Source: Gammaproteobacteria bacterium (GTDB lineage: Bacteria; Pseudomonadota; Gammaproteobacteria; SZUA-152). Taken from it: a stretch of DNA of 64,000 nucleotides. The translations under genes and the position numbers were made by a program. The notes beneath the pieces were generated by a model. The model searched no databases and had not been told where the DNA came from. It saw nothing but the letters and a program-made list of their open reading frames with translations. The DNA lies in NCBI GenBank assembly GCA_029882975.1, contig JAOUJW010000026.1, forward strand, positions 1 to 64,000, in the 5' to 3' direction. Shown piece after piece: positions 15,241 to 39,008 of this stretch; within the stretch, counting starts at the first letter, position 1; every line of letters starts with the position of its first letter.

Positions 15241-15254
15241 TGCAGCCGGGCCCT

Positions 15255-16094
15255 TTAAATAAATCCAAGACTTTTCATGATTCCAACCAGGGATTTAAAA
15301 TCTGTCATTGATGCCGGATAATAGTTTCTGGCACCGCTTGACTGGAGTATGTGTTTGTGAGTTTCGTTATCCACATCCAATTTTGTGAAAGCGTCTATCA
15401 GTTTTCTAAGCAGATGTTTTGGTACCTTGTTTGACGCCGCCCAGACGTAATCCGGATACGGCGGGGTTTCCCATATTTCTTTTACCTTACTCTTGTCGAG
15501 ATCACCATCAGCAAACATTTGTCTTATCACGTTTGCATTGGCAACACCTATATCTGCAACACCGTCTTGCACCATAAGAGCCGTTTTATCATGTGCCCCC
15601 GAGTAAAGAACCTCCGAAAAGTAAGTCTCAGGAGATATATTTTGATTGGCGAGAAAATACCGCGGCATCAAATGACCGGAAGTAGACAATTTCGAACCAA
15701 AGCTCAACTTTTTTCCCTTAAATTCTTTTATCTTATTTTCAGAATACTTGGTCGGCGCTATAAAAATGCTGGTGAAGCGCATATCCACATCCCGCATGGC
15801 TAAAGGAACAGCCTGATCCTTTATGTTTGCCATAATAAATGTAACGGCACCAAAATAGGCAATATCAATATTCCCTTTGTGAAATTCAATTAACAATTCA
15901 TCATAAGAGCTTGGAATTACGATTTCATATTTTGCATTTACACTTCCTGCAAGATATTCAAATAACGGGCCATATTTTTTTTCAATTTTTTCACTGGATT
16001 GATCCGGCAAAACACCCACCCGCAATACTTTGATGTCCTCAGATGGGGTGCAGGACACGATAAGAACCAAACTTACTAAGAGACAATAATGCAT
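15255..16094 (-). CDS. PhnD-like periplasmic substrate-binding lipoprotein
   Basis: 279 aa from ATG 16094 (GTG 16100 is also possible). A lipoprotein signal ends LIVSC (lipobox Cys about 15-17). The domain follows the phosphate/phosphonate-binding PhnD pattern: [53 protein letters not shown], and [21 protein letters not shown]. No ABC permease or ATPase is nearby; the gene is followed directly by a hybrid kinase. I therefore infer a sensor role rather than uptake. The ligand is unknown: phosphonate-type anions are typical, but the fold also binds other small oxyanions. Confidence 0.87.
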
Positions 16095-16339
16095 TTTCAC
16101 AACCTGTTACCTTTAACTGAATTTCTAATTAAATATACTCAAATAATCACCGATAAAGTGTCATAATTGTAATATCTTGCTGAATTGGTAGATAATGAGA
16201 TAAGTAATCGCTAAAGGGCCTTTGTCCTCCCACAAGCCAATGCGGGGCTCAAGCTTTTCAGGCATCGGAGCTCTGCGATATGGTTCTTGTACCATGCCTA
16301 CGGTTAATCGCTTAAAATCAAACACCTGGATCGAAGACA

Positions 16340-17107
16340 ATGACAAACGAGCAAATATCAGACGCACTTAATGCGCTCGAACAACAACACAACATCAAAA
16401 TCCTGTATGCCTGCGAATCCGGTAGTCGCGCCTGGGGCTTTCCTTCCCCGGACAGCGATTACGATGTCCGTTTTATCTACGCCCATCCGGTGGACTGGTA
16501 TTTGTCAGTTTTTCCCGGAAAAGACACCATCGACATTCCCATTTCCGGTGACAGCGACTTGGGAGGCTGGGACCTACGCAAGAGCTTTGGACTGCTCAAA
16601 AAGTCCAATTGCGCCCTAATGGAATGGCTGTCATCCCCAATCGTTTATAGGGAAAACGACACAGCGATAGCGCCCTTAAAAGATGCTGTCTCACCTTCGT
16701 TTTTGACAATCAGCGCCTGTCACCACTATCTGTCTATGGCTCAACGAAAATTCAGCGACATTGTGAGCGACGAGACCGTAAAACTAAAAAGCTATTTTTA
16801 TGCGCTACGTGCCGTATTGTGTGCTTTGTACATTATCGACAATCAATCCCCTCCTCCTATGGAAATCTCCAAGCTCAAAGACACGTATATATCATCGGAT
16901 TTGTTACCCCGTTATGAAGAACTATTGAGCCAAAAAATGGCGAGCGTGGAGTCCCACAGAACACAGCGGGAGCCATGGCTGGATTCGTTTCTGGAGCAAT
17001 CATTGGTGTTTATCGAGCAACATATTCCGGACAAACAAAATAAACTGGAAACCGCCGTACTGGATCGCGCTTTTCGTACTGCTTTACGTACAACGTGGGG
17101 AGAATAA
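16340..17107 (+). CDS. Pol-beta superfamily nucleotidyltransferase, RlaP-like (first of a pair)
   Basis: 255 aa, ATG 16340. The catalytic signature of the superfamily is clear: ESGSRAWGFPSPDSDYDVRF (GS then D-x-D, residues 27-46), with a third carboxylate likely in the DTIDIPI strand, followed by GWDLRKSFGLLKKSN and MEWLSSPIVY. This matches the RlaP-type family, which comparative genomics has linked to RNA ligase and RNA-repair genes. The reaction is unknown. The next gene is a diverged member of the same family, 5 bp downstream. Confidence 0.85.
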   Translation: MTNEQISDALNALEQQHNIKILYACESGSRAWGFPSPDSDYDVRFIYAHPVDWYLSVFPGKDTIDIPISGDSDLGGWDLRKSFGLLKKSNCALMEWLSSPIVYRENDTAIAPLKDAVSPSFLTISACHHYLSMAQRKFSDIVSDETVKLKSYFYALRAVLCALYIIDNQSPPPMEISKLKDTYISSDLLPRYEELLSQKMASVESHRTQREPWLDSFLEQSLVFIEQHIPDKQNKLETAVLDRAFRTALRTTWGE

Positions 17108-17112
17108 TCCAT

Positions 17113-18021
17113 ATGGCTAGTGTAGTTCAGAGTTTATATAAGAAAAGAATTATCACCAAACTACCCAAGTTTGTCCCTGCGAATACGCAGTATGAGGTTA
17201 TCATGGGCTCTGTGGCATATGGCGTTTCCAATGACACTTCGGACATGGATATCTACGGCTTCTGTATTCCTCCCCGAGATTATGTGTTTCCCCATTTGCG
17301 TGGAGAAATTCCCGGATTTAGTGAACCGGGACCGCAATTCGATCAATACCAGGAACACCATATATTGGATAAAGATGCAGAAAGCGGAAAAGGTCGCGAG
17401 TACGATTTGAGCATCTATTCCATCATAAAGTTTTTTCGCCTCTGTATGGAAAACAACCCCAATATGATCGACAGCCTGTTCGTCCCGCGTCGTTGTATTT
17501 TGTACACCACGCCGGTGGGAGAGCTGGTACGGGAAAATCGCAAGGCCTTTTTACATAAAGGGGCATGGCATAAATTTAAAGGTTATGCCTATTCCCAAGT
17601 TCATAAGATGAATACGAAAAACCCTGTAGGTAAACGTAAGAAAACCATTCAGGAATACGGATATGATGTCAAATTCGCGTACCATGTGGTGAGACTGTTA
17701 AACGAGGTGGAACAGATCCTCACCGAGGGAGACCTGGACCTGGAACGCAACCGAGAGCAACTAAAAGCCATACGCCGCGGTGATTGGTCTCAGGAGAAAG
17801 TACGCGAATATTTCGAGCAAAAAGAGAATGAACTGGAGTCCGTATACACCAAAAGCGAGCTCCCTCACACACCGGATATTGAAACACTTCAGAGCCTTCT
17901 GCTCGAATGCCTGGAAACCCATTATGGCAGCCTGGAGGGCTGTGTGGTCGATCAAGACGAAATGGTTATTGCCATGCGCGATATCGACAAGATTTTGGAA
18001 AAGATTAGAAATCGATTATAG
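17113..18021 (+). CDS. Pol-beta superfamily nucleotidyltransferase, RlaP-like (second of a pair)
   Basis: 302 aa from ATG 17113, chosen over the in-frame GTG at 17095 because GGGGAG (17097-17102) lies at fitting distance and the overlap with the upstream gene disappears. Signature: EVIMGSVAYGVSNDTSDMDI (GS ... D-x-D), then YGFCIPPRDYVFPHL. A helical domain follows, with KFKGYAYSQVHKM and GYDVKFAYHVVRLLNEVEQI, typical of the larger members of the family. The two proteins probably work on the same substrate or as a heteromer, since they are co-transcribed and only distantly similar. With the Thg1/kinase operon 10 kb away, this makes two clusters of possible RNA-end enzymes in the window. Confidence 0.85.
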   Translation: MASVVQSLYKKRIITKLPKFVPANTQYEVIMGSVAYGVSNDTSDMDIYGFCIPPRDYVFPHLRGEIPGFSEPGPQFDQYQEHHILDKDAESGKGREYDLSIYSIIKFFRLCMENNPNMIDSLFVPRRCILYTTPVGELVRENRKAFLHKGAWHKFKGYAYSQVHKMNTKNPVGKRKKTIQEYGYDVKFAYHVVRLLNEVEQILTEGDLDLERNREQLKAIRRGDWSQEKVREYFEQKENELESVYTKSELPHTPDIETLQSLLLECLETHYGSLEGCVVDQDEMVIAMRDIDKILEKIRNRL

Positions 18022-18222: not shown

Positions 18223-21200
18223 CTAAAAAATCGATATACTGATATCATCCACATACCAGCCACTGGACACACCGGCAGAATATCCGTTGGATAAAGCAAA
18301 ATATAACCGAATGGTTTGTCCGTTGTATGCGGATAAATCGACCAAAGGCCTCGCCCAGACACCACCTGAAGTACCCGTGTATCGTGTCAATTCCGTTACG
18401 GCAGACCAAATCCCCGGAGCAGTTTCCTGTTGAATATAGACTATAGCCCAATCGTGGTCGCATCCTGCGCAAGCTTGTGTTCTACCAGCCATAGAAAACC
18501 AGTGCCAAAACCGAAGTTGCAGTTCCTGCCCCGCCACTAACACAGGTAAGTTGATCGCAGGCGATATCAAACTGCTATTTGTGTTCGAATAATCTCCGTC
18601 CAACACGGTGGCAGCACACTGACTGGAACCGTTGTAACACTCGGCAGGGCCCGCAATCGGGGAGCCGCCCACCTGCCAGGTACCGTTGTTACTCCACCAA
18701 GCACCCATTCCATTTTCAAAATTTTCTGTAAATGGCAAATTAACAACATTGAATACTGTCTCTATGCTGATGTCGTCAATATACCAACCCGCAGCAATTC
18801 CCGCTGAGTACCCATTGCTTAAACTAAACAGTATGCGAACCCGCAGTCCGGCGTAAGCCGACAGATCCACCATAGGACGGGTCCAAACACCCGCGGTATA
18901 CCCCACATAGCTGTGTAACAGAGTTGCCGCGGACCACACACCGGGGGAATTTTCCGTTTGGATATACACTCGACCATAATCGTGATCGCACCCGGCGCAG
19001 GCTTGCGTTCTACCCGCAAAGGAAAACCAATGCCAAAATCGCAACTGAATTTCCTCACCCGTGCCAATATTGGGTAAGTCGATTGGTGGTGAGACCAGAT
19101 TGCTGTTGGTATTGGAATAGTTATCATCCATGACGCTACCGGCACACTGGCCTGTGCCGTTATAGCATTCCATCGGACCGACACTGGGTGGCCCCCCCAC
19201 CTGCCATGTGCCATTGGAACTCCACCAATCGCCCAAGCCACTGCTAAAATCTTCACTGTATGGAAGGCTGTTGCTCTTGTTGACAGTATCGATGGTGACA
19301 TGGTCGACATACCATCCCGCTGCAATAGCGGCAGAATACCCGTTACTAAGATTAAACAATATTCGGACTTTTGATCCGGCGTACGCCGACAAGTCCACCA
19401 TAGTTCGAGTCCACACTCCCGCCGAATATCCTACATAGTTACTGACTTCGGTAGCGCCACTCCAAATTCCGGGAGAAGTCTCCTGTTGTATGTAGATTCG
19501 ACCAAAATCGTGATTACAACCGGCACAGGACTGAGTTCTTCCCGCAAAGGAAAACCAGTGCCAGAAGCGTAATTGGATTTGTTCATTGGCCGCTATATTG
19601 GGTAAGGTCAGACTCGGCGAGACCAAATTGCTGTTGGTATCGGAGTAGTTACCATCCAACACCGTAGCGGCACATTGTACGGATGCATTGTAACACTCCA
19701 TAGGCCCTGCGCCAGGCGCACCGCCGATCTGCCAAGCCCCGTTGGAGATCCACCAATCACCCATTCCATCAACGAAGGATTCTGAGAACGGAAATGTCTT
19801 AGTTTGAATTTTTTCCACACTGATATCATCCAGGTACCAACCGGTGCTCACGCCGGCGGAGTATCCATTGGTTAAGGCAAATATTAGTCGGACTTTCCGA
19901 CCCGCATAAGCGGATAGGTCAACTGCGGGTCGAGTCCACACACCGGCACTGTACCCTACATAACGGGTTAACTCGGAGGCTCCGCTCCACACACCCGGCG
20001 AGGTTTCTTCTTCGATATAAACCCGACCGTAATCGTGATCACATCCGGCACAGGACTGCGTTCTACCTGCAAAAGAAAACCAATGCCAGAAGCGTAACTG
20101 TAACTCCTCCCCTGTCCCAATGTTTGGCAGCACCATTGATGGCGAAGTTAAATTCGCATTGGTATCCGTGTAGTTCCCGTTCAGAACCGTACCGGCACAT
20201 TGGGTTGATCCACCATAGCAGGCTGCCGGACCAACCGTCGGGGGTCCGCCCACTTCCCAGCTGCCGGTTGCAGACCAACTGCCCCAGCTGTTTGTCCATG
20301 TGACTTTGAAAACAATGGTATCGCACACTCTGGTGCTGACATTACCCTGTAGATCCATGAACCAGGCACAGACTTCCACGCTATCCCCCGTGTTGTACTG
20401 TTGTTGCAAGGGATATTGAAAGGTAATGGACAGATTTGCCGTCTCTGCGATGTTTACCCAACGTCCATCCGATGGCAGTGGATCAAGGTATGGTGGTGTG
20501 ACATTGCCGGGGTCGGTCGCGTTATGCTCGGTAATCAGGTAACTGGTAATGCCCACATTATCCATTGCCGTCAACCTGACACTGAATTCATCAAGCACAA
20601 TGGCATATTCTGAATTTCGGTTTATCACAACGCTTGCCGAATCCGGTGGCAAGGTATCGGCCGTGACTTCCCACGAGTGACTGGCCGGTGTTGGATCTGC
20701 GTTACCTGCCAAGTCTGTCGCTCTGACCTGAAAATTATGCACACCGGTTGACAGGCCGTTCAATGTCAATGGGGATAAACAACTGGAAAATACCGAGTCA
20801 TCCAAGGCACATTCAAACGTTGACCCCGCTTCAGTTGAGTTAAAAATAAACTCTGCGGTGGTTTCCGGTGTTGATAATGCGGGTCCACCGGTGATGGTGG
20901 TATCCGGAGCGCTTAAATCGATTTCCAAGTCGTATGTGGCCGCAGTGGCATCGGTGTTTCCTGCCAGGTCCGTCGCTCGCACACTGAAAACATGAGTACC
21001 CTCTGCCAAACTGTCGTATTGCACCGGGCTGATGCAGGCACTGTAAGCGATATTGTCTAGCGAACATTCAAAACGGGAACCGGCTTCAGTGGACGTAAAC
21101 TCAAAACTTGCCGATACGGCATTGCTTGGACTGTCGGGTGCAACGGAAATGCCGGTATCCGGCGCACTCAGGTCAACTTCCCAATTATAACTGGCCGGTG

Positions 21201-22818
21201 TTCCATCTGTATTGCCGGCAGGGTCCGTCGCTCGGACACTAAACTCGTGATTGCCTTCGTTAATGCCGTTGTATTGGGCCGGACTGGTACAGACACTAAA
21301 CGCAGCACTATCCAGGGAACATTCAAAGCTGGAACCGGCCTCAGTGGCTGTGAACTCAAAGCTTGCGGTCACTGCATTCGTAGGACTATCCGGTGCCATC
21401 GTGATACCGGTGTCCGGAACCGTTTGGTCGATTTGCCAACTGTGACTGGCGGGTGTTCCATCCGTATTCCCAGCAAGATCTATGGCTCTGACGCTCAATA
21501 CATGATTGCCTTCGCTTAAACTAATGAATTGCATTGGACTGGAACAGGTGCTGAATGCCGCACCATCCAGTGAACATTCAAAGCGGGCACCGATCTCGGT
21601 AGACGTAAACGCAAAGGCAGCCGTAGACAAGTTGGTGGGATCGGCCGGCGCACTGGAAATACGGGTGTTCGGGGCGCTCAGGTCAACGACCCAACTGTAA
21701 GCGGCGGGTGTTCCATCTGTGTTACCGGCAGGGTCTGTCGCTCGGACACTAAACTCGTGATTGCCTGCGTTAATGCCGTTGTATTGGGCCGGACTGGTAC
21801 AGGCACTAAACGCAGCACCATCCAGGGAACACTCAAAGCTGGAACCGGCCTCAGTGGCTGTGAACTCAAAGCTTGCGGTCACTGCATTCGTAGGATTGGC
21901 TGGAGTGCCGGTAATGGCGGTATCAGGCGATGTCAAATCGACTACCCAGGAAAAGCCGGCTGGTGACGCATCCATAATCCCCGACGCGTTAACCGCCCGC
22001 ACACTGAATGTGTGTGCGCCTTGCGTTAATCCGCTGTAGGATTTGGAACTGGTGCAAGCACTGTAAACTCCACTATCCAATGAACATTGAAATGTGGCCG
22101 TTGTATCATCAGAAGAGAATTCGAAGACAGCGTTGCTGGTATTACTCAATGAACCGGGACTGTTGGTTATAAAGGTATCCGGCACCTGTGCCACTATTAC
22201 AGACCAAGTATGAGTGGCCGGACTGGGATCTGTATTTCCTGCCGCGTCCGTGGCTTGAACACGGAATGTGTGCGCAGCAATCGACAGATTTGTCATCTCC
22301 AAGGGGCTGCTACATTCCGTATAGGCTGCACCATCCAAGGAACATTGAAATGTTACATTGGCGTCATTAGCCGAAAATGTGATCATCGCGCTGGATGACG
22401 TGGTCATATTGCCGGGCCCGCTGTCGATGTTCGTATCCGGCGGTGTTACATCAATTTCCCAGCTGAAGCTTGCCGGCGAAGCATCCACTTTATTCCCGTT
22501 TACTGCCCTGACGACAAACTGGTGCGATCCTTCTGATAAATTGTCATAACTCATGGGGCTGCTACAAGCGATAAACTCACCCGTGTCCAGCATACATTCA
22601 AATGTCGAATTATCTCTCGAAGATACAAACTCAAAGCCGGCACCCGCTGAATTCGTCAAAGGATCCGGCGCACTAACGATGGTGGTATCCGGTATGGGTT
22701 TATCCCCCTCCTCTTTGTTCTTTTGTTCATCATCATGAAAGCACGCATTAAGCATACCGGTGACTAGCAACACCAGTGCAACCTTGGTCACACTGCTGAG
22801 GATTTGACTGGAAATCAC
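18223..22818 (-). CDS. Large surface lipoprotein with eight Ig-like and four MAM-like repeats
   Basis: About 1531 aa. Start chosen at GTG 22818 because a purine-rich GGGGGGA lies just upstream and a lipoprotein signal follows at once (VALVLLVTGMLNAC). Residues about 44-727 hold eight repeats of about 85 aa, each with a central FECSLD--A--CTSP pattern (two Cys, probably one disulfide per repeat) and FSVRATDPAGNTD near the end, an Ig-like beta-sandwich type. After a linker come four modules of about 173 aa (about 840-1531), each with SNGTWQVGGPP, FWHWFSFAGRTQ, CAGCDHDYGRVYIQ, VDLSAYAG and GWYVDDISIE: jelly-roll MAM/concanavalin-like domains with conserved Cys. No catalytic motif is visible. I infer an adhesin or matrix protein anchored in the outer membrane and exposed outside. 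Confidence 0.85.
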   Translation of the reverse strand: MISSQILSSVTKVALVLLVTGMLNACFHDDEQKNKEEGDKPIPDTTIVSAPDPLTNSAGAGFEFVSSRDNSTFECMLDTGEFIACSSPMSYDNLSEGSHQFVVRAVNGNKVDASPASFSWEIDVTPPDTNIDSGPGNMTTSSSAMITFSANDANVTFQCSLDGAAYTECSSPLEMTNLSIAAHTFRVQATDAAGNTDPSPATHTWSVIVAQVPDTFITNSPGSLSNTSNAVFEFSSDDTTATFQCSLDSGVYSACTSSKSYSGLTQGAHTFSVRAVNASGIMDASPAGFSWVVDLTSPDTAITGTPANPTNAVTASFEFTATEAGSSFECSLDGAAFSACTSPAQYNGINAGNHEFSVRATDPAGNTDGTPAAYSWVVDLSAPNTRISSAPADPTNLSTAAFAFTSTEIGARFECSLDGAAFSTCSSPMQFISLSEGNHVLSVRAIDLAGNTDGTPASHSWQIDQTVPDTGITMAPDSPTNAVTASFEFTATEAGSSFECSLDSAAFSVCTSPAQYNGINEGNHEFSVRATDPAGNTDGTPASYNWEVDLSAPDTGISVAPDSPSNAVSASFEFTSTEAGSRFECSLDNIAYSACISPVQYDSLAEGTHVFSVRATDLAGNTDATAATYDLEIDLSAPDTTITGGPALSTPETTAEFIFNSTEAGSTFECALDDSVFSSCLSPLTLNGLSTGVHNFQVRATDLAGNADPTPASHSWEVTADTLPPDSASVVINRNSEYAIVLDEFSVRLTAMDNVGITSYLITEHNATDPGNVTPPYLDPLPSDGRWVNIAETANLSITFQYPLQQQYNTGDSVEVCAWFMDLQGNVSTRVCDTIVFKVTWTNSWGSWSATGSWEVGGPPTVGPAACYGGSTQCAGTVLNGNYTDTNANLTSPSMVLPNIGTGEELQLRFWHWFSFAGRTQSCAGCDHDYGRVYIEEETSPGVWSGASELTRYVGYSAGVWTRPAVDLSAYAGRKVRLIFALTNGYSAGVSTGWYLDDISVEKIQTKTFPFSESFVDGMGDWWISNGAWQIGGAPGAGPMECYNASVQCAATVLDGNYSDTNSNLVSPSLTLPNIAANEQIQLRFWHWFSFAGRTQSCAGCNHDFGRIYIQQETSPGIWSGATEVSNYVGYSAGVWTRTMVDLSAYAGSKVRILFNLSNGYSAAIAAGWYVDHVTIDTVNKSNSLPYSEDFSSGLGDWWSSNGTWQVGGPPSVGPMECYNGTGQCAGSVMDDNYSNTNSNLVSPPIDLPNIGTGEEIQLRFWHWFSFAGRTQACAGCDHDYGRVYIQTENSPGVWSAATLLHSYVGYTAGVWTRPMVDLSAYAGLRVRILFSLSNGYSAGIAAGWYIDDISIETVFNVVNLPFTENFENGMGAWWSNNGTWQVGGSPIAGPAECYNGSSQCAATVLDGDYSNTNSSLISPAINLPVLVAGQELQLRFWHWFSMAGRTQACAGCDHDWAIVYIQQETAPGIWSAVTELTRYTGTSGGVWARPLVDLSAYNGQTIRLYFALSNGYSAGVSSGWYVDDISISIF
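18226..20300 (-). repeat. Four tandem coding modules of about 520 bp
   Basis: The DNA encoding the C-terminal MAM-like modules is repeated four times with high similarity (for example the stretch encoding RFWHWFS-AGRTQ-CAGC recurs near 18475, 19010, 19540 and 20075). The spacing is about 520-535 bp. Confidence 0.85.
20640..22689 (-). repeat. Eight tandem coding modules of about 255 bp
   Basis: DNA encoding the Ig-like repeats. Copies 4 and 6 (about 21700-21900 and 21200-21390) are almost identical over roughly 190 bp while neighbouring copies differ, which indicates recent duplication or gene conversion within the array. Confidence 0.85.
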
Positions 22819-23141
22819 GTTGTGGTCCCCCCTTGGTTTTGGATTGGCATTTATAAAAATTAAACAACACAACTGCCTGGTTTATTTGTGGACTGACCGT
22901 CAATTCGCGAAAGCATTACAGATGGTTACAGTCACGTTTTAACAACACAGTAGCAACTAAGATACCAAGCTGGGATTGCATCAACCGTTTCTGTTGAGCC
23001 ATCTATTATTATATAAATACCAATGAGTTGGGTTATTTATCTAGAATCGATGTGATCTGGTCCGACGATTTACATTCAGTGTTATCACTCATTGAGAGTT
23101 AAGTAATAAAAAATCAATTCTCATTGAGACTTTACTGATGC
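22819..23141. other. Intergenic region with a 10-bp direct repeat
   Basis: 323 bp between the repeat lipoprotein and the AAA+ regulator, both on the minus strand. CTCATTGAGA occurs at 23088-23097 and 23120-23129, three helical turns apart, a spacing that would suit a dimeric regulator. It lies close to the end of the regulator gene. No hairpin with a T-run and no small gene recognised. Confidence 0.45.
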
Positions 23142-24851
23142 TCAGCAGGGTTGGACGGTAGGCGTTTTTTGTACGCTAATACGCCAGACATCCTTGCGGG
23201 CTTCCTTGTCTCGCTGAACCAAGCGCATTTGCTCCAAAATCTTTAGGTCTTCTGCAACCGTGGCGTCTTTGGTACCCGTTAACTGGGTACACGTTTTCTT
23301 ATCGATTTGTTGATACTGTTCCAAATACACCAAAATGCGCGACAGGCGAACCGCCGGACGAATCTTGTCGCCTCGTGCCTTAAGACGGGTTACACTTTTT
23401 GCAAACGTTTCTACTATGCCGGGACGTTGTGATTCCATTTTTAGCAAAATTTCTTTTGCTTCCAACTCAGATGGAGGAGATTCTTGGCTGGCCCAAACAG
23501 GCGACTGCCCGTCTTTCCCACTACCGTTGCACATGAAACCGTTGTCCAATTCCAAAATTCTACAGACACGAGAGTTTTTGGGTTCAATAGCAGTGGTAAA
23601 AACCGGCGATGTAATAATACCCACCCAATGATGATACTCGGGACCGCGATCCAGTACTTGCTGCATCAAAGTCCTGATCGTTTGGCTGTTATGAACCGGT
23701 TGTTTTGCCATGGATGCAACCAGCGATAACAGCGCCCTCAGTGACCGAACATTCCCGTTAAACGGTAACTTGAGTCCGCACAGCCATCGAACAACTTTAT
23801 AGGATAACTCTCTGTGTTTATCCGAACCTTCATTACACTCATGCCAGATGGTTTGCGCTAATGCGGGTATATCAGCGATGCGCTCCCGCAGTGGAGCCAC
23901 ATGCAATACTCTGTCCTCGAAACGATAAATAAAGTCCTCGCGCCACTTTTTTTCTTGCATCAAAGAAGCGATATCCGCGTTGGTCGCAAACATAAGCCAC
24001 ACCGTTGTCTTGCGTTCACTTGTTTCCCCCAAACGACTAAAACGGGCTGCCTGCCCCCTTGCCGTGGACATGATTCGCAGCAGTGCGCCCTGTACACCTG
24101 GAGGTGCAGTGTCGAAATCGTCAAATAGCACAGCGCCATCACTGTAGGTTTCCAACAAACCGGGACGATCCTCATAGGCGTCAGCATAAGCTCCTTTCTT
24201 ATGGCCAAACAACTGATCCTGCAGTAAATTCTCGGTTAACCAGGCGCATGCTACGGCCGTGAATTTATTTTTTTTCTCTCTGGAGCTTGCTTGAAATATG
24301 GCATTGGCTGCCATTTCTTTACCAACCCCGGACTCTCCCAATATTAGGGTAGGCGTCCACGGACCATGATGCCCCTTGGACAGACGACTAATCTCAGAGC
24401 GAAGCCGGTAACCTGCCGTACTCAAGCCCACCATTGGGTGATGCATATACAAATCTCTGAGAAACGCAACAATGACATTCTGATTCTGCTGATCCCAATG
24501 TAGAACTACTTCACGCCAATTGCATATGTCTATCGTTTGATCGCTCAGGTCCTCCTGCGCAATATCGCTTAAACACCAGAAATATGCATGATCGGACAGC
24601 ATTTCAGGTATTTCCTCGTACTGTTGCAACAGGTAGCGGGTTAACAATATTTGTCTGCCGACAATGATGAAAGGCCGGCCTTGCCAAAAGGCCTGATCTA
24701 AATGGTGTTTATCAAGATGGATGAATTCTATACCAGCGCATACGGATTTTAACGCGTCTTTCAAAGAGGATAACCACAGTACGGAAGAATGACAATTGTC
24801 TTCCAAATAATAAACAATCAGCGAATGATTGTTCGGACTGACACTCTCCAT
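23142..24851 (-). CDS. Sigma54-activator-like AAA+ ATPase lacking the GAFTGA loop
   Basis: 569 aa. An N-terminal receiver-like or pseudo-receiver region (about 1-125) precedes an AAA+ domain with Walker A GESGVGKE (172-179), the L1 position reading GHKKGAYADA instead of GAFTGA (220-225), Walker B VLFDDFD (241-247) in place of TLFLDE, and sensor regions FATNAD and PLRERIADIPAL. The C-terminus has a winged-helix-like segment (RLSRILVYLEQYQQIDKKTC) instead of a Fis-type HTH. Because GAFTGA contacts sigma54, classical sigma54 activation is unlikely; an ATP-switchable DNA-binding or signalling protein is more plausible. It is the last gene of a set with a receiver protein and a solute-binding kinase-like protein. 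Confidence 0.8.
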   Translation of the reverse strand: MESVSPNNHSLIVYYLEDNCHSSVLWLSSLKDALKSVCAGIEFIHLDKHHLDQAFWQGRPFIIVGRQILLTRYLLQQYEEIPEMLSDHAYFWCLSDIAQEDLSDQTIDICNWREVVLHWDQQNQNVIVAFLRDLYMHHPMVGLSTAGYRLRSEISRLSKGHHGPWTPTLILGESGVGKEMAANAIFQASSREKKNKFTAVACAWLTENLLQDQLFGHKKGAYADAYEDRPGLLETYSDGAVLFDDFDTAPPGVQGALLRIMSTARGQAARFSRLGETSERKTTVWLMFATNADIASLMQEKKWREDFIYRFEDRVLHVAPLRERIADIPALAQTIWHECNEGSDKHRELSYKVVRWLCGLKLPFNGNVRSLRALLSLVASMAKQPVHNSQTIRTLMQQVLDRGPEYHHWVGIITSPVFTTAIEPKNSRVCRILELDNGFMCNGSGKDGQSPVWASQESPPSELEAKEILLKMESQRPGIVETFAKSVTRLKARGDKIRPAVRLSRILVYLEQYQQIDKKTCTQLTGTKDATVAEDLKILEQMRLVQRDKEARKDVWRISVQKTPTVQPC

Positions 24852-24927
24852 GAGCCATACTCCCCCGGCAGTTGAAAAACGTATTTTTCAAAACACTGCC
24901 TCTTACTGTACCTTCAAACCTTCCACT

Positions 24928-25374
24928 TTACAGATCTTCTTCCTTCATCCGGGCTAAACAACCCAAAACAGCGTTCTTCAACAGCACCTTACTTTTAACC
25001 GAGCAAAGTACCAAACGCCTGTCTTTTTCGCTGCAAGGTTCAAAGTAGTCAATAGCTTCCTGAGAACCAAGAAACGCGGACCACAAAATAATGTAACTAT
25101 CCGCTTTAATATTATTCTTATGTTCGTATGTGTTTTCTTTTTCCTCTGCTCTGATTTTCTCATAGACTTCTCTACCCGCCAAGTCCTGATCATCATCAAA
25201 CAAATCCAAAATTACCAGATCCGGTCGCTGCTGGATATCCAGCGGCCAGGTAAAATCTCTTGACGTCTTGGTATCCAACGTAAACCCGGATTCCTGTTCC
25301 GCTGACCTTACTACACTAAGCGCCCGATCCAACTGGGTCTGGTAATCATCGATAATCCAAACACGGAAGTTCAC
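24928..25374 (-). CDS. Stand-alone receiver-domain response regulator
   Basis: 148 aa. GTG start at 25374 overlaps the upstream TGA (GTGA), so translation is coupled. Receiver features: acidic pair in WIIDDYQ, phospho-acceptor Asp in VILDLFDDD, SAFLGS at the Thr/Ser switch position, and a Lys in SVKSKV. No output domain is present; the likely target is the AAA+ protein encoded 76 bp downstream. An unusual acidic insert follows the phospho-acceptor (DDDQDLAGREVYEKI). Confidence 0.8.
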   Translation of the reverse strand: MNFRVWIIDDYQTQLDRALSVVRSAEQESGFTLDTKTSRDFTWPLDIQQRPDLVILDLFDDDQDLAGREVYEKIRAEEKENTYEHKNNIKADSYIILWSAFLGSQEAIDYFEPCSEKDRRLVLCSVKSKVLLKNAVLGCLARMKEEDL

Positions 25375-27650
25375 GCAACACTCCTAGGCTTGACCGGAAT
25401 AGGAATTCGTAATTCGGTTTGTCCATTGCTAACGATAGAGACACGAGACTTAAAACTGTACCAAAGTAAATCGCGAATCAGCGATAAACCCTGGCCACTG
25501 GCTTTCCCGGCACGTGCCCAGTTTTCCAAATCCTTGATGGGGCTGGGCATTGACTCCAATCGAGCCCTATGGTCCCGAGCAATGAGAATGTTCGACTTGA
25601 TACACAAATGTACCTTTCCCCGAACAGTATCAACATAGAAATTCAATCTGGCTTCATTATCCTCGGTTGTACTTTTATAAGTATTAAATATCCATTCTTG
25701 TAAGACTAACACCAGAATGTGACCCAAGTAGGGTACTTCCCACTGGTGCAAATCGGAGTGCATCTGAACCTGCGACAACTTGGTTTGTTTTGCCATTGCA
25801 GCATAGAATTCCTTTCTTGCACCATCGACGGCCATTTCTGTAATCTCCAGCAAGTCCAGACTCACTGAGCGTCCGCTGAGATCCAGGCAAACGTTTTTCA
25901 CCATGTTGGCAATATGATGGTTGTATTTTTGCGCAATATGCGAACCGTAGCTCATCAGCTTTTCCTCCAATTCCTCCGGAGGAACCTCTATAAAGTCTAT
26001 CACGGCTGCTCCATAGGCACTTAACGTTGAATGATATTTACCTCGAAACAGCAATAGGGCCAATATTTGTCGCCGTTGGCGTAGAGACGCCTTATACAAA
26101 AAGGCCATCACGATCAAAAACAGCAGAACAATAAACACGGCCAATACCGGCCACATCGCAACGCTGCTATCGATTAAGCGTGTCATGGGGTGAATTTTTT
26201 TGTTTATAGTGTATTGTGCTAGTTCAGCCGCATTTTTTATTCGAATGTCGGCCAATCCATCGTCGTTACCTTGGGCGATACGCCTCCATAAAAATTGCAT
26301 TGCTTCCAGATTCTCCAAGGTCTCCACCTGATTGGGCCAATCCGCCAATTGAGGATAGCTTTTCCGGTTTAACATGGCCTGGTCAATTGTATTGAGAATT
26401 TGTTGCCGTGTCTGATCTGACATATCTAAAGTATGTAATAGTTCGGAAACGCCAAAATCGGGAAGATTTGCCGGTAGATAGCCATTTTGAGCCAAATGGT
26501 TAAGGTGAGCCGTATCGCTCACCAGGAACCGAACTAACTCTGATGCCAAAAGCCGCTCTCGGCTGTTTTTGGTGACCATAAGTTCCGACCCGCCTTGAAA
26601 CGTCACCGGTAAGGCGGCTATGCCCAAATGATCTTCAAACGCAATTTGGCCACTGCTTTTAGGGTACATCCTTTGAAACATTTTTTCCCAATGTTTCAAA
26701 AACCCCACGGGCTCTATGATGGCGCGATACTTTCCTTCTATGAAAGATTCAATGGCCTCCACATGCCCTACCTCCGGAAACCCAATCACACGGACAGGTT
26801 CGTACGGGTTGGCTGCCGGAACGGAGGCTCTCTTTGCAATCAGACGAGGCACCTCCAGAGCCGTTTCGGTATTGAAATGGAACATGTTATCGTCAAAGAG
26901 ATTTCCTCCGCCGCCCCATACCAATGGAGCGTAATCGTGAATCAAGTTCAGCGTCAAACCGATTGGCATCACTAGAAACGCTCGAGTTTCACCCGGATCT
27001 TGAAGCTGATACCGATAAAATTGATCCAACAAGTGGTCCCAGGTGCTGCCATTGATGTAAATCGGACGCGCTGAGGTTGTGTTTGGTGTTTGTCGCCAGT
27101 AGTACAGCAACCGCAGATCGTAGGTATATGGGACGGAAAACCTCTCAATGCTTTTTTGCTCAATCTGATGGGTTCTTTCGTATTGTTCAAAATACGCTTT
27201 CCATGTAGAGCCGATTTGCACTACGTCCGGCATTTGAAATTTCTCTACGATTCCATGGCCCAGCAATGCCTCGTTAAGTGAGGCAAACATTCTGCCCCAT
27301 TTAATAAATCTCAGCTTCAGAACCACTCCCTGAGTTTGGGCAAAGCGTTTAAGTGCCGATAATGTGTGCCTCTGAGAAATAATCGTAGACCAGTTGGGTT
27401 CGGCAGATTCCGGATTGCGAATGAACAATTGATCTCGTAACACGGGAACTGTCGTATTGAGCACGGTTATTGAGTTACCCACGCCGAATTCCTGATTGAA
27501 ACGATCCAGTTCCTGTTGTGAGACTGTATGAGCAACAGAATCGTCACGAACCAGCGGTATCAACCAAACCACCAGCTCACTGGCGACGGCGTGAACCGGA
27601 AGCATCAGGACCAATATTAATAATTGCCGCTTAACAGAAAACCGTCTCAT
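25371..27650 (-). CDS. Solute-binding domain fused to a membrane-anchored kinase-like ATPase
   Basis: About 759 aa. Start chosen at ATG 27650 because a signal peptide follows directly (MRRFSVKRQLLILVLMLPVH); the frame extends upstream into the previous gene. Residues about 25-450 resemble an extracellular sugar-type substrate-binding protein (LVVWLIPLV, LKLRFIKWGRMFASLNEAL, VVQIGSTWKAYFEQ, WGGGGNLFDD, VTKNSRERLLASELVRFL). A single transmembrane segment (WPVLAVFIVLLFLIVMAFLY) is followed by a cytoplasmic domain with HATPase-like features: N-box-like VLQEWIFNTYKS and GKASGQGLSLIRDLL. No HisKA-type H-box is obvious, so the phospho-acceptor, if any, is non-standard. I infer a ligand-sensing kinase for the receiver protein encoded next, with which it overlaps by 4 bp. 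Confidence 0.8.
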   Translation of the reverse strand: MRRFSVKRQLLILVLMLPVHAVASELVVWLIPLVRDDSVAHTVSQQELDRFNQEFGVGNSITVLNTTVPVLRDQLFIRNPESAEPNWSTIISQRHTLSALKRFAQTQGVVLKLRFIKWGRMFASLNEALLGHGIVEKFQMPDVVQIGSTWKAYFEQYERTHQIEQKSIERFSVPYTYDLRLLYYWRQTPNTTSARPIYINGSTWDHLLDQFYRYQLQDPGETRAFLVMPIGLTLNLIHDYAPLVWGGGGNLFDDNMFHFNTETALEVPRLIAKRASVPAANPYEPVRVIGFPEVGHVEAIESFIEGKYRAIIEPVGFLKHWEKMFQRMYPKSSGQIAFEDHLGIAALPVTFQGGSELMVTKNSRERLLASELVRFLVSDTAHLNHLAQNGYLPANLPDFGVSELLHTLDMSDQTRQQILNTIDQAMLNRKSYPQLADWPNQVETLENLEAMQFLWRRIAQGNDDGLADIRIKNAAELAQYTINKKIHPMTRLIDSSVAMWPVLAVFIVLLFLIVMAFLYKASLRQRRQILALLLFRGKYHSTLSAYGAAVIDFIEVPPEELEEKLMSYGSHIAQKYNHHIANMVKNVCLDLSGRSVSLDLLEITEMAVDGARKEFYAAMAKQTKLSQVQMHSDLHQWEVPYLGHILVLVLQEWIFNTYKSTTEDNEARLNFYVDTVRGKVHLCIKSNILIARDHRARLESMPSPIKDLENWARAGKASGQGLSLIRDLLWYSFKSRVSIVSNGQTELRIPIPVKPRSVA

Positions 27651-27696: not shown

Positions 27697-30429
27697 TTAT
27701 CTACTGCCGCTGATACGACGACGATAGACAAACACAGACAACAGCAGCAAAAGCAGGAACGGCTCCATTGCAGTGCGTCCACCATCATTGGAGGTTGTGG
27801 CTACCGGGTCCGGTACATACTGATGCCAATAGGGGTTATAGCCCAATTCAGCAAACAGATACCAGGATGTCGCCCCTACATGCAATCGACTGAAATATTC
27901 CCAGTTAAACCCGGTAGTGACACCATCATGCGATGCGGCAACAATCCCGCGACCATCGGTATTTACGGCCTGGGTCTGAGCTTTTTGTATTTCCGAACGG
28001 TAGAACCTGCTGGAGTTATCGCCGTTCATTCGCAAAGCCAGAGCCATTTGGGCACTTCCCTCAAACCAAACCCCATCCAGCTCACTACAGTTAAAGTCGA
28101 ATCCGCTGAAACCATCACGACTCAAGGCACAATTGTTTTTGGCCCACACCAAACCTCGGCGAATACGTAAATCGTCCGGAATCGCCATCACGGCCCAGGC
28201 TTGAATATCGACGGGTATATTGTCTCTGTTGACAGTCACACCATCATCACCTGTACCCGTCCAGAAAAATCCTTCTGTATTGTTCCACATGGAATCCACC
28301 AATGTTTTTGCATGCTCGGCGCGCTGCCGCCAAACATCATCCCCGGTGATGAGGAACAAGCGTTGAAACGCCGGGTACAAATCGATGTTATGTTCTGTCG
28401 CCTTGTAAAGCAATTTTTTGGGTGGTGTGGTATTGGTGGCTGTCTGTTCCCAGCCTTCATAGCCCCCCATATACCCACCGGCCCCCCGATCATCGCGAGT
28501 GAATTGCTCAACCCAATCTCCCATGCGCTTGGCGGATTCCAGGTAGCGAGTTTCACCGGAGACTTCGTAATAGGTGATCAACGCGAGCATAGCCCATGCG
28601 ACATTTCCGGTGTGAGTGCTGACATTGAATTCGTCCTCATACCATTGCTGGGCCTGGATGTCCCACCAACCCGGAAGTTTTGCCGTACTGGGTGCGGGAT
28701 CGTACAAATCGCCGGACATATAAGCATTTCGTAACCGGCCGTCATTGTAATGGCGATCATTTTCCTGGGCATACACTAACGCATCGGCCAGCAATCGAGC
28801 TCGACTCAAGTCATCTTCACTGCCGCGTGCAATATAGGCCAACATAGCCAAAGCATTGTCATAGACGTAAGCGGTATTGAGTAATGGAAATTCTGTTTTG
28901 TTATCCAATATGGTGAAGCTTTGCAGGAAACGTAGCCTGTCCCTGCGGTCTACATCGTATTTAACTTCATCGATATAGAATATAGGGTCGTTGCGTACCA
29001 ACCAACCAAATGGACTGACAATATGGGTCAAATCCAGACCTTCCAGCGGAATTTCATATCGTGTCCAATCCGTGCTGAGCGATAAAGTCCCGGTCGATGC
29101 CTCCGGTTGCAGGGAATCCGGGTAGGTTCCGACCACCCCTCCTGCAACGAACTCGACCGGCTCATTACCCAGTTCACCCCTGGCGTAGAAGCTGACTTTT
29201 GTGGCACCACTAAGATCGAACCCGGCAGCTGCGAGATTGGCCCAGTTACTATCGGGTTGCAGCCAGCGAATCCCCACCCAGGACGGTAGGGCGGTTTCCC
29301 ATATGTTCTTAAAACAGGTTAAGCCGCTATAACAATTCACTTGCCATTGTGGGTCCACTTGCAGGATGTCCGTGTATCCCATCCACCCGGAAGGACTGGC
29401 ATGGTTAGCGCCGCTATTGAAATCGGTATAGATGTGAAAACTGGTATGGTACTGGTCCATAGTGGATGTGAGATAGTCGAAAGCGCGACTGGTCGAATCG
29501 GCACTCAGATCCAAAACATAAACCATACGTACCCGCTCGGTAGCATGATTTCCGGCTGTGTCACTAACGTTGAAAGACAAACGGTAAGAACCTGGAACGC
29601 TGCTATCAACCAAACCCCGGGTCACCACCCTGGCGCTAATATCACCATCTCGATTATCCGTTGCACAAACCGGCTGAAGCACATAAGGTTGCCCTATTTG
29701 CAATATTTGAGTATTTATCCCATTCAAATCGATTACAGGCACGGTTTCATCATACGGTGTATTTCCATTGAAATACTCCAAAATTGCCAGATCGGTTTTT
29801 ACATAATCATATACTTTCAGTTCGTCGATTTGACTGCGTGAAAAACCGTACCATCCAACCCATCCGACGCAAAAGTTACCGGCCGGGTTAGGGTTGGAAC
29901 CGGATACGATACCATCATAATTGGATTTACAAGCACCATCCCAACATACTTTAAAATTGGTTTGTGTCCCTTGGATTTGCCAAACTGCAGTTACCAGGTG
30001 CCAACGATCGTCATGGGCAATGGGTGCCGGTCCCCAGGCTTGATCGAAACTGTTACTGACATTCTTCACTTCCATGATGATATGATCAGCATTCTTAAAT
30101 ATCCCTCTGCTGTTCGCAGAACCCAATCCGCCAATATCAAAAAAACCCAAACGATTGGCGTTAGGTGTCTTGACCCAGAATTCCAGCGTTCCCTGGCTCA
30201 GGTCCAGGTTACCTTGTAGGGGATAACAAACTCTGGTGGAATTAGAGAAATCGGCTGCATTTCCCACCACTCCGGGAACAATATTCGGCCAAGCAGATCC
30301 CGCAGAAGCACCATTAACTTGCATTTGATCGAGGCTGTCAAAACTTTCGTGAAACAACAAAGTATCGGCCTGCGTAACCTGCATGCTGAGGATTAAATAG
30401 ATAGCGCAAGACAACTGGATAATTTTCAT
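27697..30429 (-). CDS. Secreted multidomain protein: LamG, Ig-like, carbohydrate-binding and (alpha/alpha)6 glycosidase-like domains
   Basis: 910 aa. Strong ribosome site AAGGAGGGG before ATG 30429, and a signal peptide to about residue 21. Order: LamG/concanavalin-like domain (about 30-215, GTLEFWVKTPN, DELKVYDYV), an Ig-like/DUF5011 segment (DNRDGDISARVVTRG, GSYRLSFNVSDTAGN), a galactose-binding-like domain with Trp-rich surface (GIRWLQPDSNW), then a helical toroid (LLNTAYVYDNALAMLAYIA, NVAWAMLALITYYE, HNIDLYPAFQRL) as in six-hairpin glycosidases. The C-terminus (DGGRTAMEPF, hydrophobic run, YRRR) resembles a GlyGly-CTERM-type sorting signal. I infer an exported polysaccharide-active enzyme. 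The solute-binding sensor encoded 46 bp downstream might detect its products. Confidence 0.78.
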   Translation of the reverse strand: MKIIQLSCAIYLILSMQVTQADTLLFHESFDSLDQMQVNGASAGSAWPNIVPGVVGNAADFSNSTRVCYPLQGNLDLSQGTLEFWVKTPNANRLGFFDIGGLGSANSRGIFKNADHIIMEVKNVSNSFDQAWGPAPIAHDDRWHLVTAVWQIQGTQTNFKVCWDGACKSNYDGIVSGSNPNPAGNFCVGWVGWYGFSRSQIDELKVYDYVKTDLAILEYFNGNTPYDETVPVIDLNGINTQILQIGQPYVLQPVCATDNRDGDISARVVTRGLVDSSVPGSYRLSFNVSDTAGNHATERVRMVYVLDLSADSTSRAFDYLTSTMDQYHTSFHIYTDFNSGANHASPSGWMGYTDILQVDPQWQVNCYSGLTCFKNIWETALPSWVGIRWLQPDSNWANLAAAGFDLSGATKVSFYARGELGNEPVEFVAGGVVGTYPDSLQPEASTGTLSLSTDWTRYEIPLEGLDLTHIVSPFGWLVRNDPIFYIDEVKYDVDRRDRLRFLQSFTILDNKTEFPLLNTAYVYDNALAMLAYIARGSEDDLSRARLLADALVYAQENDRHYNDGRLRNAYMSGDLYDPAPSTAKLPGWWDIQAQQWYEDEFNVSTHTGNVAWAMLALITYYEVSGETRYLESAKRMGDWVEQFTRDDRGAGGYMGGYEGWEQTATNTTPPKKLLYKATEHNIDLYPAFQRLFLITGDDVWRQRAEHAKTLVDSMWNNTEGFFWTGTGDDGVTVNRDNIPVDIQAWAVMAIPDDLRIRRGLVWAKNNCALSRDGFSGFDFNCSELDGVWFEGSAQMALALRMNGDNSSRFYRSEIQKAQTQAVNTDGRGIVAASHDGVTTGFNWEYFSRLHVGATSWYLFAELGYNPYWHQYVPDPVATTSNDGGRTAMEPFLLLLLLSVFVYRRRISGSR

Positions 30430-30451
30430 TCACCCCTCCTTCCCTTGCGTT

Positions 30452-30491
30452 GTTGGTTTTGTCGTTGGTTTTGTCGTTGGTTTTGTCGTTG
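30452..30491. repeat. 12-bp tandem repeat, three and one third copies
   Basis: GTTGGTTTTGTC at 30452-30463, 30464-30475 and 30476-30487 plus GTTG. It sits within the 5' flank of the secreted glycosidase-like gene, 23 bp upstream of its start, so length changes could affect its promoter or leader. Confidence 0.9.
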
Positions 30492-30644: not shown

Positions 30645-30676
30645 TCTCAGTAATACATTGCCATGTATTACTGAGA
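30645..30676. other. Perfect 13-bp inverted repeat in a 360-bp intergenic region
   Basis: TCTCAGTAATACA (30645-30657) and TGTATTACTGAGA (30664-30676), 6-nt loop. Lies between two minus-strand genes (30430-30789 carries no other gene). No T-run follows on either strand, so it could be an operator of the downstream gene or a structural mRNA end. Confidence 0.7.
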
Positions 30677-34992: not shown

Positions 34993-35799
34993 ATGAAAAA
35001 TTTGAAACTGATCGTAATTTCCGCGATAGTCATTTTAAGCTTTGCGCACCAAGTCCACGCCAAAGCGACATACACTTTTGGCATCGTACCGCAACAGGCA
35101 GCCGGAAAATTAGCACGTTTGTGGAGTCCTTTTTTGGACTACCTGAGCAGAGAAACGGGCCTTTCCTTTCAATTTGCCACAGCGAAAGACATCCCGACTT
35201 TTGAAAATCGATTAGCCAAAAGCGAATATGATTTTTCGTACATGAATCCCTACCACTTTGTATACTTTAATGAACGCGCCGGTTATCAGGCCCTGGTAAA
35301 AGCGCAAGACAAGAAAATTCGAGGGATTGTAGTGGTGCACAAAGATAGCCCCTACAAAAAACTGTCCGACTTAAAAAATCAACACTTAGCCTTCCCCTCC
35401 CCTAACGCTTTTGCCGCCAGCATACTGCCTAGAGGCGAACTGGAAAACCAACAGATTCCATTCAATCCGGAATACGTTTCTTCACATGATTCAGTTTATA
35501 TGAATGTGGCGCATAAAACCTTTGCAGCGGGCGGTGGTGTAATGCGTACTTTTAAGAGCTTCAATCCTGAACTAAGGAAACATCTGCGAGTGCTCTACAA
35601 AACCAATGGCTATACTCCACATGCGTTTGCGCATCATTCCAGGATTCCTAAAGAGCACATTACCCGAATATCCCAAGCCCTACAAAAAATGCACACCACG
35701 ACAGAAGGAAAACAACTATTAGCCTCTCTGAAGTTAAAAGGTCTGATCCCGGCCAAAAACAGCGATTGGGATGACGTTAGAAAACTGAAACTTCAATAA
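34993..35799 (+). CDS. PhnD-like periplasmic substrate-binding protein
   Basis: 268 aa, ATG 34993 after GGGAGGTGACAT. Signal peptide to about residue 24 (VHAKA), without a lipobox. PhnD-type pattern: YTFGIVPQQAAGKLARLWSP, DFSYMNPYHFVYFNE, GIVVVHKDSPYKKLSDL, LAFPSPNAFAASILPRGEL, YVSSHDSVYMNVAHKTFAAG. As at 15255-16094, no transporter genes follow; instead a large hybrid kinase begins 35 bp downstream. I infer ligand presentation to that kinase. Confidence 0.87.
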   Translation: MKNLKLIVISAIVILSFAHQVHAKATYTFGIVPQQAAGKLARLWSPFLDYLSRETGLSFQFATAKDIPTFENRLAKSEYDFSYMNPYHFVYFNERAGYQALVKAQDKKIRGIVVVHKDSPYKKLSDLKNQHLAFPSPNAFAASILPRGELENQQIPFNPEYVSSHDSVYMNVAHKTFAAGGGVMRTFKSFNPELRKHLRVLYKTNGYTPHAFAHHSRIPKEHITRISQALQKMHTTTEGKQLLASLKLKGLIPAKNSDWDDVRKLKLQ

Positions 35800-35834
35800 C
35801 TAACGTGAAACCATGATAACGAAAGAAAACCAAA

Positions 35835-38800: not shown

Positions 38801-39008
38801 AGTTCATGCTAATGCCCACACCTTAAAAGGCAGTAGCTTGACAATAGGGGCCAATTTGTTAGGGGAACTGTGCAAGCAACTGGAACAATGTACCAGGGAT
38901 AATGACAGTGAATCGGCAACACAGCTCGTGACCAGAATTCACGTGGAATTTGCGAAAACATTGGAACTTATAGACACCCAGTTGGACGCCAAGAAAAAAA
39001 TCGCTTGA
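35835..39008 (+). CDS. Phosphorelay hybrid kinase: sensor loop, HAMP, PAS, HisKA, HATPase, two receivers, HPt
   Basis: 1057 aa, GTG start at 35835. Two membrane segments (about 8-28 and 177-198) enclose a periplasmic domain containing a His-rich run: His 110, 118, 120, 122, 124, 130 and 134. Then HAMP (about 200-255), PAS (270-390), HisKA with His418 ([13 protein letters not shown]), HATPase (DTGIGI, GGTGLGLSI), receiver 1 (VDDNRTN, MDMQMPELDG; the usual SKP-type Lys reads NKPI), receiver 2 (AEDNIVNQE, MDCQMPIMDG, PKPL) and an HPt domain with His995 (NAHTLKGSS). A full BarA-type relay, so the output must be a separate regulator, not found nearby. The His cluster suggests metal sensing. Confidence 0.93.
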   Translation: MSFRLKTILGIAVIEILLVTMIISFGLTWLKESNESSLHTQADNISHLLATTAKDAVISYDVATLDEFLNNLHEKNGVVFARVSGKFGVLSEVGNIELLQESIDNPKLTHSPNIPIVHEHNHKHEANDKHIEKHLIYKGVHIVTVEIAEGGSVYGEISLGFSNEHISDLIKDAAQKVPLIALSGILLSALFSFALGTYLTKQLSLLRKASVAIREGQLGVQIDVKGSDELAETARDFNSMSSKLETMYANLNQTLKKSQDLAIDLQESEHYTNTIIHSVADAIICTDTNGLIERVNPAFCNMFGYSEVEIIGKNVSVLMADLTEEKHQTYLSNFLAKTNRQSTVLNSRREFTAKRKDNSQFPISLAVKPVQLIDELIFVGLIQDTTTYKEAEHKLIQANKEAIAASKAKSEFLANMSHEIRTPMNGVIGMLHLAGKTKDDSLREKYIHTAIGSADILLNIINDILDFSKIEAGKLNLENITFNLRKIVEDTADLLSQLVQSNKIETVCFYDFNIPDHIFGDPTRIGQILMNLCSNAAKFTEKGCISISATSKTSGFDSCLIRFEVTDTGIGIEKNVSDKLFLPFEQADGSTSRKYGGTGLGLSICRQLVDMMGGKIGVDSEFGKGTTFWFEIDFKKDLRETSYSPATVSGKTVLLVDDNRTNVAVMSTYLRGVGFEVLECLDGKHAITLAEELNRKKVDIDLVIMDMQMPELDGMQTAILLHAIEQFRSTPIMMVSSLCPPDKIDSKTGIRLFMNKPIRYEQFIENVFSLLADDAAAATDDATPVDNSDIPAATFATSAAVVLAEDNIVNQEVAMAMLEFLGLKPILAENGQDAVNLRFESPVDFIFMDCQMPIMDGYTATSEIRRLEEERGLNRVPIIALTANVMADDIERCTQSGMDDHIPKPLSEQHLIEMLNKWLPHSNKETNSMTKPNASSEYDNIPRLNTECIDDLYSKVGDRLLSILDKYKTNSASLLTQIDDHLGSGDLDKVHANAHTLKGSSLTIGANLLGELCKQLEQCTRDNDSESATQLVTRIHVEFAKTLELIDTQLDAKKKIA

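Follow-up and report, generated by a model that had tools for sequence, protein, structure and literature searches.

We analysed a window of 64,000 nucleotides (positions 1 to 64,000 of contig JAOUJW010000026.1, assembly GCA_029882975.1) from a Gammaproteobacteria bacterium, focusing on a three-gene signalling set on its minus strand. An original prediction had described this set as a binding-protein/kinase fusion, a lone receiver and an AAA+ protein. Three intact open reading frames (ORFs) were found there, running head to tail from 27650 to 23142 and encoding the sensor, the receiver and an AAA+ protein of the bacterial enhancer-binding protein (bEBP) type (Table 1). The translational coupling described for the first two genes was also seen: the sensor TGA and the receiver GTG overlap by 4 bp as GTGA (25374-25371), and the AAA+ gene follows the receiver after a gap of 76 bp. 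We took 27650 as the sensor start because an alternative frame of 805 amino acids, starting at 27788, would run into the gene upstream (27697-30429), and because a signal-peptide-like stretch follows the start of the 759-amino-acid frame. The base composition of the operon resembles that of its flanks. The gene layout, the domains and the catalytic residues kept or lost, as described below, are properties of the sequence itself.

Table 1 Features of the three-gene locus and their positions in the window
Feature	Position	Strand	Basis or remark
Sensor gene, 759 amino acids	25371..27650	-	Signal-peptide-like start, sugar-type binding domain, transmembrane helix, divergent kinase-like domain
Periplasmic ATP-binding cassette (ABC) sugar-type substrate-binding domain, residues about 30-490 (matched 103-479)	26181..27563	-	PDB, Pfam and Thermus plasmid matches
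Predicted transmembrane helix, residues about 497-520	26091..26162	-	Hydrophobic stretch, by inspection
His540, candidate phospho-acceptor	26031..26033	-	116 residues ahead of N-box Asn656
HATPase-like domain, residues 600-759	25374..25853	-	N box Asn656 and G2 box SGQGL retained, G1 box replaced
Lone receiver gene, 148 amino acids	24928..25374	-	GTG start, no output domain
bEBP-type AAA+ protein gene, 569 amino acids	23142..24851	-	Pfam Sigma54_activat, E = 4.6e-36; AlphaFold2 model, PDB matches
Probable receiver-like (pseudo-receiver) N-terminal domain, residues about 10-136	24444..24824	-	Alpha/beta order in the AlphaFold2 model, PDB alignments
Walker A GESGVGKE, intact	24315..24338	-	Alignment to bEBP cores
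Ala201 at the switch-Asn position	24249..24251	-	Alignment to bEBP cores
L1 loop GAYADA (residues 220-225), GAFTGA position	24177..24194	-	Alignment to bEBP cores
Walker B Asp244-Asp245, DE position	24117..24122	-	Alignment to bEBP cores
Winged-helix-like C-terminal segment, residues 505-559, weak	23175..23339	-	Weak NCBIfam, PADLOC and Pfam matches
Pair of 20-nt repeats beginning CTCATTGAGA (80% alike, spaced 32 nt apart)	23088..23139	+	Possible operator

The outer part of the sensor carries the sugar-type substrate-binding domain that had been proposed for it. Residues 133-478 matched the solved sugar-binding protein 7c6f (E = 1.2e-11) and residues 167-393 matched CbpB 7x0i (E = 3.2e-6); the Pfam family SBP_bac_8 gave E = 0.0017, under the cut-off of that model. 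Among plasmids, 26 records matched the sensor, all from Thermus, and the matches listed (20) showed 24-26% identity and were annotated as plain sugar-binding proteins. These similarities suggest that the ligand is probably a sugar or oligosaccharide. No PAS domain match was found in the sensor.

The inner part was harder to place. A Pfam search with residues 515-759 at a maximum E of 10, where the HMMER filters discard most matches above about 0.1, gave zero matches, HisKA included, so that the missing HisKA box of the original prediction was borne out by a profile search. The HATPase-like end also held, weakly: against a profile of 20 kinases, taken from fetched loci and chosen with a G1 box required, the sensor scored 31.2 in hhalign (probability 38%, E = 3.4e-4, aligned residues 580-756), exceeding all 60 shuffled controls (best 24.7, mean 14.0). 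With Pfam silent, the hhalign result weakly groups the inner part with the histidine kinases (GHKL ATPases). The N box (QEWIFN, containing Asn656) and the G2 box (SGQGL) are present, and the G1 box DxGxG is absent, with SNILIARD (residues 686-693) in its place, a loss that had not been mentioned before. A second set of 32 kinases, for which strict N and G2 boxes but no G1 box were demanded, had DxGxG in every member; strict boxes favour canonical kinases. When 70-140 residues before the N-box Asn were scanned, 29 of these 32 had an H box, at a distance of 110-122 residues in 28 of the 29 and of 140 in the other. Because His540 lies at this usual spacing before the N box, it is a possible phospho-acceptor, although the spacing is suggestive only.

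The receiver keeps its phosphorylation pocket (D9/D10, D57, S99 and K127, named by inspection). Pfam was silent on this protein; in hhalign it scored 37.8 over residues 3-109 against a profile of 15 receivers, and 40 shuffled versions reached at most 18.3. No output domain was seen in its 148 residues, in agreement with the original prediction.

The AAA+ protein is of the Sigma54_activat type. Alignment to 24 bEBP cores showed that Walker A, the arginine fingers and sensor II are intact, with R304, R310 and R369 conserved. The same alignment confirmed GAYADA at the sigma54 contact loop and an altered Walker B, both of which had been noted, and revealed a further change that had not: Ala stands at the position of the switch Asn, a residue whose role is described in PMC7175178. 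In addition, five residues are inserted after the helix that comes behind Walker B.

To place these substitutions, we compared the best 80 of at least 589 stretches from a genome scan with the pattern FGHxKGAY[AT]; as GAY is fixed in the pattern, the figures describe these relatives and are not valid for bEBPs generally. The loop read GAYTGA in 66 of them and GAYTDA in the other 14; Thr was thus present in all 80, and Ala in none although the pattern permitted it. Walker B was DE in 79 and DD in one. At the switch position, a crude pattern gave Asn in 62 and another residue, never Ala, in 13, leaving 5 unresolved. The single DD protein (locus L042, 7263-8867, Planctomycetota) is an otherwise canonical receiver-AAA-Fis protein that combines GAYTDA and DD with Ser at the switch. 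In D. vulgaris, GAYTDA and GAFTDA are listed among the variants expected to retain activation (PMC4641369); elsewhere, RpoN was absent from a pull-down with a GAFTDA protein, a result whose cause the authors leave open (PMC10714721). Since GAYTDA occurs naturally, the Gly-to-Asp change alone is a weak sign of departure, and Thr-to-Ala combined with the changes in the switch pair is the stronger one. The real departure of the loop is Thr-to-Ala; the label "GAFTGA-less" of the original prediction was overstated, as both GAYTGA and GAYTDA are natural forms. The genome itself contains rpoN and 10 other bEBP-type matches; six of their loops were read, giving GAFTGA in L003, L006 and L007, GSFTGA in L005 and L008, and NAFTGA in L002.

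The first 140 residues of the AAA+ protein matched no Pfam family. An AlphaFold2 model built from 25 sequences had a mean predicted local distance difference test (pLDDT) score of 65.9, with values of mostly 78-96 in the core; residues 11-80 reached 58-66, and most of residues 83-129 stayed below 50. In the N-terminal region of this model strands and helices alternate, and no Asp lies at the end of predicted strand 3. The top Foldseek matches were full receiver-AAA+ chains of NtrC1, FleQ, NtrC4, VpsR and NtrX; VIA-align aligned NtrC1, NtrC4, FleQ and one NtrX from model residues 7-11 onwards, with a root-mean-square deviation of 14-19 over both domains. These comparisons indicate, with modest confidence, that the N-terminus is probably a pseudo-receiver, a domain that the original prediction did not include. 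That prediction had the protein end in a winged-helix-like segment instead of a Fis-type helix-turn-helix (HTH), and this is what the searches returned: weak winged-helix matches around residues 505-560 (NCBIfam HTH_metalloreg, 3.7e-4, and Pfam HTH_34, 0.068, both under cut-off; PADLOC CARF3, 0.0037), and no Pfam match to a Fis-type HTH in the whole protein (maximum E of 1) or in its C-terminal part (maximum E of 10, with the filters again dropping most matches above 0.1). AlphaFold2 confidence is low over this C-terminus. An affinity to RtcR/CARF proteins was considered and rejected. The PADLOC RtcR match (175 bits) was confined to the AAA part (residues 166-396), and it reflects the AAA+ core only, because 316 of the 369 class genomes also pass this model at E = 1e-45, and the listed matches reach much higher scores, about 387-662.

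We analysed the distribution of the sensor and the AAA+ protein across related genomes. The sensor was found only in its own genome at E up to 0.001 (one genome each among 24 of the family, 369 of the class and 378 of the phylum), and so was the AAA+ protein, at E = 1e-40 among 96 relatives and at E = 1e-38 among the 378 phylum genomes. At E = 1e-29, 152 of the 369 class genomes contained a match to the AAA+ protein, the best outside its own genome aligning over residues 165-382 with 125 bits. As the class and phylum were only sampled, as no more than two or three candidates from each genome were scored in the large searches, and as the scan of genome contigs was tied to the loop motif, orthologues may exist elsewhere. 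A plasmid search with the receiver gave no match. Plasmids yielded 2255 records matching the AAA+ protein; the four inspected are GAFTGA bEBPs, and this lead was rejected. Single-protein scans of viral sequences gave no match, and six loci emerged when viral contigs were scanned with patterns, two with GAYTDA and none an orthologue. A defence role for the operon was also rejected, as PADLOC had no match for the sensor or the receiver at E up to 1.

The two CTCATTGAGA repeats lie immediately beyond the AAA+ stop codon, on the upstream side of the following minus-strand gene. A pattern derived from them matched the genome six times, comprising the pair itself (0 mismatches), one overlapping match in reverse and three matches elsewhere (2 mismatches each), with no other exact match; the reversed-pattern control matched once. 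As a guess, the repeats might form an operator to which the AAA+ protein binds. Sigma54-like sites are near chance in the window (44, against a shuffle mean of 33.2, with 6 of 100 shuffles reaching 44), one -24/-12-like site with 2 mismatches lying at 22952-22967. Between 22700 and 31000, 9 sigma70-like sites were found against 12.5 expected.

We tentatively favour, at somewhat less than an even chance, the reading that a two-component system gave rise to this locus, a regulatory operon of three proteins that senses a ligand and has an AAA+ output independent of sigma54. Adjacency and the GTGA coupling are what suggests that the three proteins form one chain. In this chain, the periplasmic domain would sense an oligosaccharide and pass the signal across the membrane to the divergent kinase-like module. 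His540 could then exchange phosphate with Asp57 of the receiver; because the ATP-binding G1 box is lost, we propose that the module acts as a weak kinase, a phosphatase or a transfer module like ChpT or Spo0B. The next step would lead from the receiver to the AAA+ protein, whose receiver-like N-terminus is the probable docking site; the C-terminal winged helix of the AAA+ protein may contact DNA, perhaps at the CTCATTGAGA repeats that adjoin the AAA+ gene. At ordinary promoters, the AAA+ protein might provide a platform for assembly, binding ATP and hydrolysing it slowly or not at all, on the model of Rhodobacter NtrC or VpsR, instead of remodelling sigma54. The likely targets would be neighbouring secreted, glycan-related genes. 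In a bolder form, which we consider unlikely, the locus encodes a split response regulator: the separate phospho-receiver docks on a receiver-like domain that is blind to phosphate, part of an AAA+ winged-helix regulator independent of sigma54; the state of the phospho-receiver is set by the sugar receptor, whose kinase domain no longer binds ATP and acts as a ligand-gated phosphatase or transfer module.

Several observations weigh against the favoured reading. No orthologue of the trio was found among the sampled family, class and phylum genomes, so that conservation of the trio, of its altered motifs or of the repeats cannot be demonstrated. The hhalign support for the kinase domain is modest, the dimerisation and histidine-phosphotransfer segment (residues 521-610) alone is unmatched (score 14.5), and a single-sequence AlphaFold2 model of the kinase part had a pLDDT of 36, which made it unusable and led us to exclude it. 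The position of His540 could be accidental, as about 0.5 His is expected in any window of 13 residues when 245 residues contain 9. On the AAA+ side, hhalign with the receiver profile misses the N-terminus (11.5, against shuffles up to 18.0), and the VIA-align rows for VpsR are restricted to the core, the model outside residues 134-403 being barely tested by that program. Finally, the occurrence of GAYTDA in otherwise normal proteins and the variability of the switch position leave room for sigma54 dependence.

This last point leads to a rival that we regard as somewhat unlikely, namely a conventional branch of divergent sequence, in which the kinase is active, the receiver carries phosphate and the AAA+ protein still activates sigma54 promoters, its loop variant being tolerated. 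The 14 GAYTDA and 66 GAYTGA relatives, the activity expected of GAYTDA and GAFTDA in D. vulgaris (PMC4641369), and L042, with GAYTDA, DD and a switch Ser in a canonical frame, all fit such tolerance, as do the rpoN gene and the -24/-12-like site. However, none of the 80 relatives has Ala at loop position 4, the switch Asn is replaced by Ala, Pfam finds no Fis HTH, sigma54-like sites are near chance, and the GAFTDA protein described in PMC10714721 did not bring down RpoN.

Two further explanations concern the coherence of the set. The operon may be decaying or orphaned, in which case one lineage would have inherited or acquired it, its motifs would be eroding and no coherent chain would remain. 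The restriction of the sensor to a single genome in each sampled set and the joint loss of several catalytic motifs are consistent with decay, but all three ORFs are open at full length and tightly coupled, the receiver pocket, Walker A, arginine fingers and sensor II are intact, and the base composition matches that of the flanks, making this rather improbable. It appears still less probable that the AAA+ protein is merely a neighbour with an input of its own while the sensor and receiver feed another regulator. Such an arrangement would account for the 76-bp gap, which contrasts with the 4-bp overlap between sensor and receiver, and the window does hold two other sets of a binding protein and a hybrid kinase. 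On the other hand, the AAA+ gene is contiguous with the other two on the same strand, and a receiver-like N-terminus lacking the phospho-Asp could be complemented by a partner receiver.

We compared the operon with known systems. BvgS-family proteins likewise appear to combine a binding-protein fold and a kinase module, having periplasmic Venus flytrap domains fused to a kinase (PMC4352136, PMC5829827), whereas here there is one large ABC-sugar-type domain, no PAS match, no recognisable HisKA and no G1 box, and the receiver is separate. The CuaD-CuaS-CuaR system of Ruminiclostridium cellulolyticum also links a sugar-binding protein to a sensor/regulator pair, for polysaccharide use (PMC10384115); its binding protein is described as a separate gene, whereas here it is fused and the proposed output is the AAA+ protein. 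FleQ and VpsR, both among the top Foldseek matches, resemble the present regulator as bEBP-like AAA+ proteins, and their receiver-like N-terminus has a probable counterpart here. VpsR ends in a Fis-type HTH; in contrast to both, the present protein has a winged-helix-like end and altered Walker B and switch positions. FleQ, which has a C-terminal HTH, is reported to work at sigma70 and sigma54 promoters (PMC10723142), and VpsR, like NtrC of Rhodobacter capsulatus and Caulobacter, is reported to lack GAFTGA and to regulate sigma70 promoters (PMC10274813). These NtrC proteins carry an L1-loop deletion and a phospho-Asp receiver in the same protein, unlike the substitution and separate receiver seen here. 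The kinase-like module also seems to share its shape and an atypical ATP-binding part with ChpT, which is not a membrane sensor, whereas here a receptor domain and a transmembrane helix stand ahead of the module. ChpT is described as having an atypical ATP-binding fold and no autophosphorylation (PMC3433190).

The best reading is a BvgS-like fusion with a FleQ/VpsR-like regulator, possibly a split response regulator working without sigma54. The original prediction spoke of a signalling chain off the textbook at every step; its anatomy stands, but "every step" is too strong, because the receiver keeps DD, D, S and K and a candidate His lies at the usual distance from the N box, because BvgS-type fusions and GAFTGA-less bEBP-like proteins at sigma70 promoters are already known, and because L042, an otherwise canonical NtrC-type protein, has GAYTDA and a DD Walker B. 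Each departure has a known parallel; a narrow literature search found no operon with all of them together, which leaves their absence in print unproven. Should the chain work in this way, the tasks of sensing, carrying phosphate and giving an AAA+ output in an NtrC-type system can be distributed anew over proteins, the bEBP AAA+ module can persist after changes in the sigma54-contact Thr, the Walker B Glu and the switch Asn, and the operon would offer a compact case for studying the action of such an AAA+ ring at sigma70 promoters.

The operon lies between two genes for proteins with immunoglobulin (Ig)-like domains. Downstream of the AAA+ gene, 18223-22872 encodes a protein of 1549 amino acids with Ig-like and MAM-like domains, a possible target, and the upstream gene (27697-30429) encodes a LamG/Ig protein. 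At 30449-30491, just ahead of the gene start at 30429, a 19-nt sequence is present in three copies spaced by 12 nt (tandem 12-bp units), and further upstream, at 30645-30676, is a perfect 14-bp inverted repeat with a 4-nt spacer, which may be an operator or a terminator. The two other sets in the window, at 13408-16100 and 34993-39008, each consist of a phosphonate-type binding protein and an adjacent hybrid histidine kinase with canonical HisKA and HATPase_c domains in Pfam. Two adjoining genes at 16340-18021 belong to the RlaP family (RNA repair, DNA-polymerase-beta family), with E values of 2.3e-77 and 1.2e-20.

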